A stretch of 32,869 nucleotides of DNA, from positions 1 to 32,869 of the forward strand of contig JANYCT010000063.1 in assembly GCA_025360105.1 (NCBI GenBank). Direction: 5' to 3'. Positions 26,897 to 30,800 of this stretch are shown here, piece by piece. Both the position numbers and the translations under genes were made by a program. The notes under the pieces are model-generated. The model saw nothing but the letters and a program-made list of their open reading frames with translations, did not search any database and was not told the DNA's origin. Within the stretch, counting starts at the first letter, position 1, and every line of letters begins with the position of its first letter. Source of the stretch: Actinomycetes bacterium (GTDB lineage: Bacteria > Actinomycetota > Acidimicrobiia > Acidimicrobiales > Ilumatobacteraceae).

Positions 26897-27835
26897 ATGA
26901 GCAACAAGCTTCGGGTGGGGTTCTTTGGCCCCTTTGGCACCTTCACGGAACAGGCACTGCTCACGCAGGCCGACCTGGCCGACGGCGAGCTCATTCCGTT
27001 CCGAACCGTTCCCGACGTGCTCGATGCTGTTGATTCGGGTGATGTTGACCTGGGCTTCGTGCCCATCGAGAACTCCATCGAAGGCACCGTCAACTTCACA
27101 CAGGACGCGTTGGTCTTCGATCACGAGTTGCTCATCCAGCGCGAGGTGGTGCTCGATATCGAACACTGTCTGCTCGCCGCGACGGGAACGTCGCTCAAGG
27201 ACGTCAAGGTGGTGTTGTCTATTCCGGTGGCCACGGCGCAATGTCACCACTATCTGCGTACCCAACTGCCAGCCGCTGAGATTCAGGCGGCCACGAGTAC
27301 TGCCGAAGCTGCGCGCATCATTGCCGAGCACGCATCACTTGGCGTGGCTGCCATTGCACCGCGCAACGCCGCAACGCTGTACGGCCTCGAGGTCCTAGCG
27401 GCCGGCATTGCGGACCATGGCTCGAACCAAACACGCTTCGTGTTGGTCGGCAAACAACACATTCCGCCGCCCACCGGTCACGATCGCACCGCGCTGGTTG
27501 TCTATCAGCGGGCCGACCAGCCGGGCAGCCTGATCAGCATCCTGCAGGAGTTCGCGGCGCGGCGCATCAACCTGTCGAACCTGCTTAGCCGGCCGACCAA
27601 GCGCGGCGGTCTGGGCGACTACTGCTTCATCGTCTACGCCGACGGCCACGTGGCTGACGAACTGCTGGCCGATGCGATGCGATCGTTGCATTCGAAACAA
27701 GGTGCCGTAAAGTTCCTCGGCTCGTACCCCGCTGCCAGCGAGCATGCGCACAGCGCCCGCGAACACGCCGATACCCGTTGGCGAGAGGCCGACGACTGGG
27801 TCGAATCATTGCGCGCCGACATCGGTCCGAACTGA
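26897..27835 (+). CDS. pheA: prephenate dehydratase
   Basis: A 312-residue monofunctional enzyme that converts prephenate to phenylpyruvate in phenylalanine synthesis. The periplasmic-binding-like catalytic domain has FGPFGTFTEQA at 10-20, VPIENSIEGTV at 55-65 and the catalytic Thr in SNQTRFVLVG (T179-R180-F181). A C-terminal ACT domain, about 198-275, with the LLSRPTKRGGLGDYCF segment (ESRP equivalent), should bind phenylalanine for feedback inhibition. The first motif has Pro-Phe in place of the usual Pro-x-Gly spacing but is otherwise normal. It stands alone, with a TAGCCT box 6 nt before the ATG. The nearby genes are not aromatic biosynthesis genes. Confidence 0.95.
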   Translation: MSNKLRVGFFGPFGTFTEQALLTQADLADGELIPFRTVPDVLDAVDSGDVDLGFVPIENSIEGTVNFTQDALVFDHELLIQREVVLDIEHCLLAATGTSLKDVKVVLSIPVATAQCHHYLRTQLPAAEIQAATSTAEAARIIAEHASLGVAAIAPRNAATLYGLEVLAAGIADHGSNQTRFVLVGKQHIPPPTGHDRTALVVYQRADQPGSLISILQEFAARRINLSNLLSRPTKRGGLGDYCFIVYADGHVADELLADAMRSLHSKQGAVKFLGSYPAASEHAHSAREHADTRWREADDWVESLRADIGPN

Positions 27836-27862: not shown

Positions 27863-27895
27863 TCTCACCTGTTTCTTACGCTCATCCAGTACACA
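27863..27895 (+). promoter_or_regulatory. direct-repeat operator and promoter ahead of the response regulator
   Basis: TCTCACCT (27863-27870) is followed exactly 11 bp later by a weaker copy TCTTACGC (27874-27881), then a TACACA box (27890-27895) that ends 7 nt before the GTG at 27903. Two half sites on an 11-bp period are typical of OmpR/PhoB-family binding. The same half site occurs, as a perfect pair, before the secreted-protein gene at 29941. Confidence 0.5.
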
Positions 27896-27902
27896 TGTGG
27901 CC

Positions 27903-28595
27903 GTGGGCGCAGCGATTCGCGTAGTCATAGCCGAAGACGAACGGGCAGTACGTGAGTCCCTCGCGAGGGCACTCACGCTCGAGGGCTACGACGTCACCGC
28001 GGTTTCCGACGGCGCACAGGCCCTCGAGGTGTTGCGTGCCGAACCCGCCGACGTGGTGGTGCTCGATGTCATGATGCCCATTGTCGATGGCCTCACGGCG
28101 TGTCGGGTGTTGCGCAGTGAAAAAAATCGAGTGCCGATTCTGTTGCTCACTGCGCGTACCGAAACCTCCGATCGGGTTGCCGGTCTCGATGCCGGGGCCG
28201 ACGACTATCTTCCCAAACCGTTTGCACTTGCCGAGCTGCTCGCCCGCCTGCGCGCCCTGTTGCGCCGCGCTCAACCCGATGACGATTCTGAAGCCTCGTC
28301 GTTCAGCGTTGGCGACCTGCGCGTCGACAGCGCCGCTCGGCGCGTTTGGGTTGGCGATGGTGAGATCGAATTGTCCAAGACTGAGTTCGACCTGCTCGAA
28401 CTCCTGGTGCGCAACTCGGGCATCGTGTTGGATCAGACAACGATCTACGAGCGCATCTGGGGATATGACTTCGGCCCTGACTCGAAGAACCTCGCGGTCT
28501 ACATCGGCTATCTGCGCCGAAAGATCGATATCGAGGGCCGTCAACCGCTGATCCACACCGTGCGCGGCGTGGGCTACACCGTGCGTTCGCGATGA
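27903..28595 (+). CDS. OmpR/PhoB-family response regulator (MprA-like)
   Basis: A 230-residue two-domain regulator. The receiver domain has the acidic pair in IAEDE, the phospho-acceptor D55 in VVLDVMMP, the conserved Thr in LLTAR and K in LPKPF. The C-terminal winged helix ends in the HTVRGVGYTVR signature of DNA-binding OmpR-type domains. It is most like the MprA group of actinobacterial envelope-stress regulators. A GTG at 27903 is used; another GTG two codons earlier is possible. The stop overlaps the histidine kinase ATG (ATGA), so the pair is coupled. Direct repeats upstream suggest autoregulation. Confidence 0.9.
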   Translation: MGAAIRVVIAEDERAVRESLARALTLEGYDVTAVSDGAQALEVLRAEPADVVVLDVMMPIVDGLTACRVLRSEKNRVPILLLTARTETSDRVAGLDAGADDYLPKPFALAELLARLRALLRRAQPDDDSEASSFSVGDLRVDSAARRVWVGDGEIELSKTEFDLLELLVRNSGIVLDQTTIYERIWGYDFGPDSKNLAVYIGYLRRKIDIEGRQPLIHTVRGVGYTVRSR

Positions 28596-29950
28596 CACTG
28601 CGCGCGAAACTCGCTCTGGTTCTCGCGGCCCTTGCAGCGATGGCCGCCGTGGGCGTCGGCTTGCTGAGCTACGACGCGACGAGCACGCGCATGCTCGCCG
28701 AGATCGATCGCACGCTGGCCAACTCAGGCCGCGCCCGCAACGATGGAGATGGCGACACGCTCGCCGGTGGTCAAGCAGGTAATCCTCCGAGCGGAAACCG
28801 ACCCGGTCGCATTCCGCTCGGTGGGCTCGAGGTGATTCAATTGCTCGACTCCACCGGAGCGATCGTGGTGGTCACCAATGGTGTGACGCTGCCCATCAAT
28901 GCCGCCGAGCTCGCTGTTGCGACCACCGGTTCGGGCAGCGTGCTGCGTTCGGTCACTGGCTCGGATGGCCGTGAGTTCCGCGTCAGCACGCAGCCGATCG
29001 TCGGCGGCGCGCGCCAGTTCGGCCGCGATCTCACGGAAATGAACCGCGTGCTGCACGACCTCCGCGCGCGCATCTTGCTCGTTGGAGCAGCCGCTGTTGT
29101 GATGGCAGCGTTCGCCGGTTGGCTGGCTGCGCGCGGACTGACCAAGTCACTCAGCGCGCTGACACTGGCCGCCGGTGAAGTCTCGACCACGGGTCGGCTC
29201 GATATCGATGTCGACGCATCCGGACACGACGAAGTCGGCCGCTTGGGTACGGCGTTTTCGACCATGCTCGCAGCGCTCAATCGATCGCGCGAGGAACAAC
29301 GTCGCTTGGTGCAAGACGCCGGACACGAGTTACGTACGCCCCTCACGAGCCTGCGCACCAACGTCGACGTGTTGCGGCGGCACAGCGATCTCCCAGCCGA
29401 CATGAAGGCCAGGGTCCTCGATGACCTCGACATCGAAGTAGCGGAACTCTCGGCATTGGTCGAGGAAGTCGTCGCGGTTGGGTCCGGGCACAACGCAGAC
29501 GAATCGGTCACGCGCGTTCAGCTCAGCGATGTTGTCGAATCTGCTGCGGGTCGAGTCGGTCGACGTACCGGGCGCACCATCGACATCGCCGCGGATTCGT
29601 CCGTGGTGACTGCGCAACGGGCGTCGCTCGAGCGCGCAATCACGAACCTGTTGGACAATGCCGCCAAGTTTGACCAGAGCGATCAACCCATCGCGGTCAC
29701 GGTCGAAGCCGGCCGGGTTGCGGTTCGTGACCACGGGCCCGGTATCGCCCTCGACGATCTCGAGCACGTCTTCGACCGCTTCTACCGGGCCGTCGCAGCT
29801 CGTTCGCAGCCTGGCTCCGGGTTAGGGCTGTCTATCGTCACCGAGGTCGCCGTGGCCCACGGTGGTACCACGTTCGCCGAGAACGCCGCCGATGGCGGCG
29901 CAATCGTCGGCTTCACCCTTCCCATCTCGGCCGCGAAGCCTCTCACCTGA
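28592..29950 (+). CDS. sensor histidine kinase (MprB-like), partner of the upstream regulator
   Basis: A 452-residue membrane kinase. TM1 is at about 5-27, an extracytoplasmic region of some 130 residues contains a disordered Asp/Gly/Pro-rich stretch, TM2 is at about 160-182, then a HAMP domain, the HisKA domain with H245 in QDAGHELRTPLTSL, and the ATPase domain with N-box NLLDNAAKF, G1 DHGPGI and G2 GSGLGLSI. It overlaps the regulator by 4 nt, which marks them as a cognate pair. The last codons overlap the first TCTCACCT repeat upstream of the next gene. Confidence 0.92.
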   Translation: MTLRAKLALVLAALAAMAAVGVGLLSYDATSTRMLAEIDRTLANSGRARNDGDGDTLAGGQAGNPPSGNRPGRIPLGGLEVIQLLDSTGAIVVVTNGVTLPINAAELAVATTGSGSVLRSVTGSDGREFRVSTQPIVGGARQFGRDLTEMNRVLHDLRARILLVGAAAVVMAAFAGWLAARGLTKSLSALTLAAGEVSTTGRLDIDVDASGHDEVGRLGTAFSTMLAALNRSREEQRRLVQDAGHELRTPLTSLRTNVDVLRRHSDLPADMKARVLDDLDIEVAELSALVEEVVAVGSGHNADESVTRVQLSDVVESAAGRVGRRTGRTIDIAADSSVVTAQRASLERAITNLLDNAAKFDQSDQPIAVTVEAGRVAVRDHGPGIALDDLEHVFDRFYRAVAARSQPGSGLGLSIVTEVAVAHGGTTFAENAADGGAIVGFTLPISAAKPLT

Positions 29951-29959
29951 CTCTCACCT
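29941..29959 (+). promoter_or_regulatory. perfect direct-repeat operator before the secreted-protein gene
   Basis: Two exact TCTCACCT copies at 29941-29948 and 29952-29959 lie on an 11-bp period, as expected for one OmpR-family dimer. The first copy overlaps the kinase stop codon. The same half site is found upstream of the regulator at 27863, which implies that the regulator controls both its own operon and the secreted-protein gene. Confidence 0.55.
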
Positions 29960-30062
29960 CGTTGGGAACGGACTCATACGTTCGACCCGCAAGCTACATA
30001 CATCGGAACAACGACATCGGATCCCCCCGCCGATGTCGCACGATCAACAAGGAGAACATGAC

Positions 30063-30713
30063 ATGAAACAGAAAAGACTGGCAATCGCAGGAATGACTGG
30101 TGCACTGCTCCTCGGCGCAGGTACCGGCGTGGTTCTGAACCTTCCCAGTAGCGCTGGTGCGAGTAGCAGCGTCGTTGCTGCGGCCACCACGCCGACCGAC
30201 CCGGCGGCCCCCGCCGATTCGGGCACGGGCACACCCACCGGTACCGATGCCCACGGACCCGGAAAGTTCCTGAAGGACTCCCTGGCAGCATTGGTCACCA
30301 GCGGCACGATCACTCAGGCCCAGGCCGATGCAATCACCGCTGCTGTCGATGCCAACCGCCCAACCGGTGGACCCGGCGTCGGTGACGGCGACGGCGATCA
30401 CGCTGGCCGCGGACCCGGTGGACCCGGCATGGGTCGTCATGGCGGTCGCGGTGGTGCCGGCCTCGATGCGGCTGCAACTGCACTCGGCATGACCCCTGCT
30501 GAACTGCGCACCGAATTGGAGTCGGGCAAGACCATCGCCCAGGTCGCAACGGCCAAGAGCGTCGATGTGCAGAAGGTGATCGACGCACTCGTCGCCGAAG
30601 CCACCACCCGCATCACCGACATGGTGAACGGTGTGAAGCCGGCCGCGCCCGCTGACCAGACGGCGCCAGCCGATCCGGCCGCAACACCGTCGAGCACAGC
30701 TACGAACGGCTGA
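30063..30713 (+). CDS. secreted protein with repeated helix module, probable target of the two-component system
   Basis: A 216-residue exported protein. A signal peptide (about 1-40, hydrophobic MTGALLLGAGTGVVLNL) is followed by Pro/Ala/Thr-rich sequence, a helix pair KDSLAALVTSGTITQAQADA at 71-90, a Gly/Asp/His-rich linker (100-135), a second helix module LGMTPAELRTELESGKTIAQ that continues into VATAKSVDVQKVIDALV (141-177), and a Pro/Ala-rich tail. This helical module recurs in actinobacterial secreted proteins encoded beside MprAB-like systems; its role is unknown. The Gly/His/Asp linker could bind metal. The ATG at 30063 has AAGGAG 8 nt upstream. A strong terminator follows. Confidence 0.75.
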   Translation: MKQKRLAIAGMTGALLLGAGTGVVLNLPSSAGASSSVVAAATTPTDPAAPADSGTGTPTGTDAHGPGKFLKDSLAALVTSGTITQAQADAITAAVDANRPTGGPGVGDGDGDHAGRGPGGPGMGRHGGRGGAGLDAAATALGMTPAELRTELESGKTIAQVATAKSVDVQKVIDALVAEATTRITDMVNGVKPAAPADQTAPADPAATPSSTATNG

Positions 30714-30754: not shown

Positions 30755-30800
30755 GGGCCCGTGGTGCGTCTCCCAGCACCACGGGCCCGTTTTGTTTTCT
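30755..30800 (+). terminator. intrinsic terminator after the secreted-protein gene
   Basis: A perfect 13-bp stem, GGGCCCGTGGTGC (30755-30767) pairing with GCACCACGGGCCC (30776-30788), encloses an 8-nt loop and is followed by a T-rich run TTTTGTTTTCT. It ends transcription 40-90 nt after the secreted-protein stop codon and insulates the downstream SDR gene. Confidence 0.93.

Follow-up and report, generated by a model that had tools for sequence, protein, structure and literature searches.

A phased CTYACC repeat as the candidate operator of a compact two-component circuit in an Ilumatobacteraceae genome

Genes and repeats of the locus

The window, that is, the whole stretch of 32,869 nucleotides that was analysed (contig JANYCT010000063.1 of an Ilumatobacteraceae assembly), contains adjacent genes for a response regulator (RR), a sensor histidine kinase (HK) and a secreted protein (SP), with a prephenate dehydratase gene upstream. 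The features on which the analysis is based are the following.

26897-27835, prephenate dehydratase gene, upstream of RR
27864-27880, + strand, candidate RR operator, half-sites CTCACC (27864-27869) and CTTACG (27875-27880) in 11-bp phase
27890-27895, + strand, putative -10 hexamer TACACA, nine bases past the second half-site
27903-28595, + strand, RR, OmpR/PhoB-type response regulator (Response_reg and Trans_reg_C), GTG start, predicted to be leaderless
28592-29950, + strand, HK, sensor histidine kinase (HAMP, HisKA and HATPase_c)
29942-29980, + strand, candidate SP operator, three half-sites: CTCACC (29942-29947), CTCACC (29953-29958) and a weaker CATACG (29975-29980)
29990-29995, + strand, putative -10 hexamer CAAGCT (family pattern CAnnMT), nine bases past the third half-site
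30063-30713, + strand, SP, secreted protein with a signal-peptide-like N-terminus, a Gly-rich middle and a helical C-terminal part
30755-30788, + strand, terminator-like hairpin of 13 pairs downstream of SP, followed by GTTTTGTTTT

The domains recognised in the RR product (PF00072, E=3.1e-31; PF00486, E=4.5e-24) agreed with the OmpR type assigned to it in the initial annotation; its nearest solved structure was M. tuberculosis PrrA (1ys6), followed by PhoP and then by 1kgs and RegX3. The combination of a receiver with Trans_reg_C and of direct-repeat operators in approximately 11-bp phase, the latter judged from sequence only, is that of an OmpR/PhoB-type regulator. The domains of HK are those of a two-component sensor kinase, and its 452 residues include no cysteine. 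No NCBIfam equivalog above its own cut-off was found among the best 25 of 98 matches for RR and the best 25 of 72 for HK.

At the curated cut-offs SP matched no Pfam family, with DUF2680 as a weak match (E=0.016), and its predicted structure (mean pLDDT 57.4, higher in the helical stretches) was too weak for a fold search. SP has a normal leader, with a ribosome site, AAGGAG, at 30049-30054. Homologues of SP were present in 126 of 200 family genomes, and in 37 family genomes the co-occurrence of HK (counted as present at E below 1e-60) and SP was moderate (22/7/2/6; Fisher p=0.013, uncorrected for relatedness); RR and HK were present in the genome G002, in which SP was not found. The terminator scan gave two matches in the window, which is equal to the shuffle mean of 2.0. 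Farther upstream, a LarC-type nickel insertion gene (PF01969; 25707-26827, - strand) with a His-rich stretch occupies two overlapping reading frames instead of a single one, and this split could be a frameshift of the LarC1/LarC2 kind, a known one, or else decay or an assembly error.

The repeat had initially been described as an 11-bp direct repeat, forming a perfect pair before SP and a perfect plus a weak copy before RR. The exact-word and mismatch searches bore out these positions: 27863, 29941 and 29952 are all the exact TCTCACCT copies in the whole window on both strands, and the copy at 29941 overlaps the HK stop codon (29948-29950). The figure of 11 bp holds for the period, whereas the repeat unit itself is 8 bp. 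At least three TCTCACCT copies were also obtained in 3 of 100 shuffles, so that the single word is only mildly unusual. At the same time, the paired form TCTCACCTnnnTCTCACCT, which occurs without mismatches at 29941-29959 and with three at 27863-27881, had only these two window matches at ≤3 mismatches, and two or more matches were obtained in 0 of 100 dinucleotide shuffles. The half-site was redefined as CTYACC, recurring in 11-bp phase, instead of TCTCACCT, and the better form of the motif is CTYACC-N5-CTYACS together with its spacing to the -10 hexamer. The half-sites before SP have offsets of 0/+11/+33, the perfect pair being the upstream part of the array; the third half-site and its distance to the -10-like hexamer are additions to what had been annotated.

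Conservation of the arrays and geometry of the promoters

Matches to HK were obtained in 61/61 genomes searched, with many paralogues, and 30 loci were read. In many relatives CTCACC-N5-CTTACG, or the same with CTTACC, is located upstream of RR, and in several the gap between HK and SP contains CTCACCT-nnn-(t)CTCACC. Most of the 31 SP upstream regions (30 loci from the search for SP homologues and L120; seven genera, with 13 regions from g22 and 8 from g1) carry CTYACC-like half-sites at 0/+11/+33, followed by nine bases and a CAnnMT hexamer. The repeat shared by the regulator and the secreted protein, as originally pointed out, is kept upstream of both genes in relatives, as the initial interpretation would predict, and the array persists at L089, L090 and L120, in which SP and HK are not neighbours.

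A region was marked as significant when at most 3 of 300 dinucleotide shuffles of that region reached the observed score. The mark was reached by 19/27 RR promoters (11/19 genera), 28/31 SP regions and 5/18 regions upstream of a further operon, FRE, which is described below. The SP regions below the mark were L098 (214/300), L107 (5/300; g10, the one genus of the seven that falls short) and L110 (23/300), and the RR regions below it numbered 8/27 (L021, L025-L028, L032, L037 and L038, of which L028, at 9, and L032, at 14, were borderline). RR is preceded by an SP homologue in L027 and L028, so that the operon there may be served by the SP operator; the array was found in the genome of L028 (L102).

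The spacing of half-site pairs, scanned from 6 to 60 bp, was 11 bp in 28/31 SP regions, 22 bp in 19 and 33 bp in 20, with no other spacing exceeding 6, and 11 bp in 19/27 RR promoters, the next being 17 bp with 4; on the reverse strands no spacing was seen more than twice. Some of the tested loci had also supplied the consensus and geometry, which makes both the shuffle and the spacing tests partly in-sample. A more independent test is the gene-blind search for the triple array in 101 family genomes, which yielded 34 matches against 7 in the reversed controls, with RR, HK or SP detected by tblastn at 22 of the 30 fetched loci. The SP array of the window was missed by the triple pattern at one mismatch because its third half-site carries two. 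Phased triple arrays followed by hairpin-like sequence (by eye), with no obvious protein start, were observed at L202 (G026:C95) and L203 (G083:C51), where a short transcript under the same control is possible.

The alignment of RR- and FRE-type promoters comprised 23 sequences, namely 17/27 RR and 6/18 FRE promoters (L128-L132 and L134, with L132 placed by hand at the position found in the shuffle test); the RR promoters left out were two near-duplicates (L011, L017) and the eight below the mark, in which there was no clear pair. In 20 of the 23 an in-frame ATG or GTG is located 38 or 39 bases past the first C of the operator, the chance of which is ~1e-21 if a crude 1/16 per promoter is taken and relatedness is ignored. 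The FRE start codon obeys this distance of 38 or 39 bases, and in the window the GTG at 27903 is 39 bases from the first C, with an alternative in-frame GTG at 27897; such an earlier start, at 32 or 33, is present in six of the 20, including the window. A start codon fixed in this manner suggests that the RR and FRE mRNAs are leaderless.

The sole well-conserved column of the RR/FRE -10 hexamer is an A at +29 (20/23 promoters), and 9/18 hexamer columns of the FRE/RR type are weakly conserved apart from this A; the -10 assignment in this set leans mainly on one column. The SP hexamer pattern is clearer, since an A at +49 and a T at +53 are shared by 18/18 aligned promoters, which were hand-picked from the 31 regions to thin near-duplicates and poor rows. 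A sigma-70 consensus scan detected no promoter in the locus region.

A second target and the size of the regulon

The repeat had been expected to provide a motif for the whole regulon, and this holds only in part: one conserved target was found outside the window, whereas a search of the complete genome (3.89 Mb) with TCTCACCTnnnTCTCACCT gave 11 matches against 10 in the reversed control, so that the exact motif alone is no regulon marker. Two of the 11 are the window sites, and L002 and the L005/L051 site lie in open frames. Exact CTCACCN5CTYACC had 15 matches in the genus; the three of them that lie in the present genome away from the locus (L049, L051, L053) are all inside open frames and were taken as chance. 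When nine same-genus genomes were scanned with CTYACC-N5-CTYACS plus the -10 hexamer at ≤2 mismatches, 103 matches were obtained against 112 in the control, and this lack of a bulk excess argues for a small regulon; the best match to the RR-type pattern was the RR promoter in 9/9 of these genomes (0-1 mismatch).

This same-genus scan with the -10 hexamer included did reveal a second recurring site, shared by G000, G006, G007 and G008. The gene behind it encodes a 461-residue protein with Ferric_reduct, FAD-binding and NAD-binding domains, and is followed by FMN_bind and ApbE genes (Pfam). The products of these genes appear to export electrons from the cell. This FRE cluster, which lies outside the window, unites PF01794, FMN_bind and ApbE and is in this respect MsrQ-like: a PF01794 membrane protein with an NAD-binding domain, FMN_bind and ApbE make up the MsrQ-like flavinylated electron-transfer cluster, which is described as broadly conserved in Actinobacteria (PMC8238504). 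Close FRE copies (at least 80% identity) are present in the genus only in the four genomes named, all of them with the box; G001 and G003 had no match, and G002, G004 and G005 had distant matches only. The box was also found in G026 (12/12) and, in a weaker form, in G019 (9/12, with 42/300 shuffles as good). It was not significant in 13/18 FRE loci, the five significant regions all being within the seven closest FRE homologues.

An SP homologue is located upstream of the FRE operon in G035 (L137), and an FMN_bind homologue downstream of the kinase in G040 (L036), so the parts of RR, SP and FRE are linked by neighbourhood too. The SP-FRE locus of G035, an AT-rich genome, has CTTAAG, CTTACT and CTTACA in 11-bp steps before SP, possibly as a variant of the operator. 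Two contigs of G008 (C175 and C193) contain similar, non-identical FRE promoters and FRE genes, representing either a duplicate gene or a mixed assembly.

The phylum-wide scan for the array gave 24 matches against 2 in controls, with 21 new loci. RR or SP homologues were found at 5/18 parsed loci (L206, L208, L209, L223 and L224, with L217, L218 and L225 outside the count), and 13/18 lie in open frames, which is weak evidence of coding at high G+C. Similar arrays are located beside other RRs elsewhere in the phylum; CTYACC is hence not exclusive to this RR, and OmpR-type regulators of Actinobacteria may use CTYACC in 11-bp phase more broadly. L223 and L224 each have a 0/+11/+33 array with a divergent RR on one side and an HtrA-like protein on the other (trypsin and PDZ domains confirmed at L224 only); this arrangement recalls mprAB-pepD. 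At L209 the array is flanked by a divergent RR, of another type, and by a secreted-looking protein, behind which comes ApbE.

The proposed circuit and its relation to known systems

Very probably the repeat is a genuine and conserved binding site of the neighbouring regulator. This OmpR/PhoB-type RR would form a compact autoregulated circuit over RR, SP and FRE. CTYACC half-sites in 11-bp phase would bring RR protomers head to tail onto one face of the DNA. In the RR and FRE promoters the pair would cover the -35 region and spacer, at -26/-15 from the first -10 base, with transcription starting at or beside the start codon, and in the SP promoter the pair would be at -48/-37 and the third half-site at -15. 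The phosphorylated RR most likely activates its target promoters, since the -10 hexamers are non-consensus with no visible -35 box and since the SP pair is located upstream of -35, the usual place of an activator. Such activation would result in positive autoregulation and in the induction of SP and of the flavocytochrome/FMN-binding/ApbE operon. The conservation, the 11-bp phase, the start-codon spacing, the -10 pattern at SP and the identity of the genes behind the sites come from the sequences themselves; binding and activation by RR, and the kind of signal, we infer.

The segment SKNLAVYI[GS]YLRRK, near-unchanged in most of the box-bearing RRs printed (slightly different in L018, L019 and L034), should be the DNA recognition helix according to its position and its LRxK motif (cf. 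PMC4867592). The targets suggest envelope or extracytoplasmic redox as the signal. More speculatively, the whole could be a two-component regulon not yet described, in which the condition of the cell envelope or the redox state outside the cytoplasm is sensed and flavin-based export of electrons is switched on in response. The three-site operator and the leaderless start would set the response, and SP, as a small secreted helical protein, would either feed back on the kinase or serve the flavoprotein outside the membrane.

The same sites could also be used by RR as a repressor, its own gene included, because at -26/-15 they overlap the core promoter and would block RNA polymerase. Repression is possible at the RR and FRE promoters, but as a general account we consider it rather doubtful: the strong SP pair lies at -48/-37, upstream of the -35 position, where activators are usually placed, and no -35 consensus was seen beside the weak -10. 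The overlap with the -35/spacer region does speak for it, as does the CutR site located 17 bp upstream of a start, which accompanies repression (PMC12802291). It is unlikely that another OmpR-family regulator with the same half-site reads these boxes and that the local RR and HK are merely neighbours. Similar arrays do occur beside different RRs in other families, but the array sits on the promoter of RR itself and also accompanies this RR in L091, L092, L103, L109 and L113, whose adjacent kinase is a match of no more than 29-35%.

The boxes resemble PHO boxes in their 11-bp direct-repeat design, and the S. coelicolor unit GTTCACC has TCACC in common with them (PMC4415409), so a reading by the PhoP/RegX3-type phosphate regulator of this genome had to be weighed. 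We regard it as very improbable, given that the half-site has a C in place of the T of GTTCACC, in 18/18 first and second SP half-sites and in 22 and 23 of the 23 first and second RR/FRE half-sites, and that the GTTCACC pairs form a separate set in the genome (65 matches at ≤2 mismatches against 19 in controls), with none on the contig of the window. A functionless tandem duplication that arose by chance at the kinase stop codon, with an unrelated similar word before RR, would agree with the lack of enrichment of the exact motif in its own genome and with the partly coding first copy. It is strongly disfavoured, to the point of being hardly credible, by the footprint, that is, conservation at fixed spacing over several genera, including SP genes away from HK.

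A one-line repeat thus becomes a base-resolved candidate operator with defined phase, -10 distance and start codon, which is directly testable with one purified protein. MsrQ-like flavinylated electron-transfer operons also gain a candidate regulator, and there is now a handle on the SP family, which occurs in 126 of 200 family genomes and of which the copy in the window matched no Pfam family at the curated cut-off. The observation in the initial annotation is thus confirmed and its meaning was right in outline, the motif being longer and better defined than was stated. The circuit is clear and testable, though not new as a category; it comprises a small regulon, to which an electron-transfer operon is added as the extra member.

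The mycobacterial MprA box has an 8-3-8 layout, and the neighbour of MprAB is pepD, encoding an HtrA/PepD protease; no such neighbour was found here, SP being in that place. As here, MprAB of Mycobacterium and Corynebacterium is an actinobacterial RR-HK pair; in C. glutamicum its autoregulation is positive, and it has binding sites upstream of genes for the envelope and for secreted proteins (PMC12113857). The complement, KTTCTTAAMA, of the loose C. glutamicum MprA motif TKTTAAGAAM (PMC12113857) resembles by eye a CTTAnC half-site, although the motif itself differs. CutRS of Streptomyces is similar as an actinobacterial RR-HK control of secreted proteins, where CutR reads TAWATAAA and the sensor CutS has two conserved cysteines (PMC12802291). 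A CutR reading was rejected, as TAWATAAA matched at one mismatch in the window only at 2848 and 5931, none near these promoters, and as HK has no cysteine against the two conserved in CutS.

PHO boxes consist of 11-bp direct-repeat units, at least two per promoter, read by an OmpR/PhoB-type winged-helix protein, with GTTCACC as the S. coelicolor unit (PMC4415409). The PhoB/PhoP boxes of E. coli and Streptomyces are thus alike in direct-repeat architecture, but their units are CTGTCAT or GTTCACC, whereas those of the present locus are CTYACC, with SP and FRE as targets. Membership in the PHO regulon was rejected, the window sites not being among the 65 GTTCACC-type matches. The sole perfect GTTCACC repeat (L227:1501-1518) is located just past a polyphosphate kinase gene, ~1 kb before phoU, and is likely a PHO box.

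In the titles and abstract beginnings that were searched, with papers on the mycobacterial MprA box outside the scope, no description of this operator was found. Since the PHO-box and CutR readings do not fit and the likeness to the MprA motif is loose, the operator is best said to work like PhoB/MprA-type operators, whether or not the pair belongs to MprAB. The FRE operon has the same gene content as the MsrQ-like clusters, for which no two-component regulator is named in the available part of PMC8238504, and at FRE a predicted two-component operator is added to that content.
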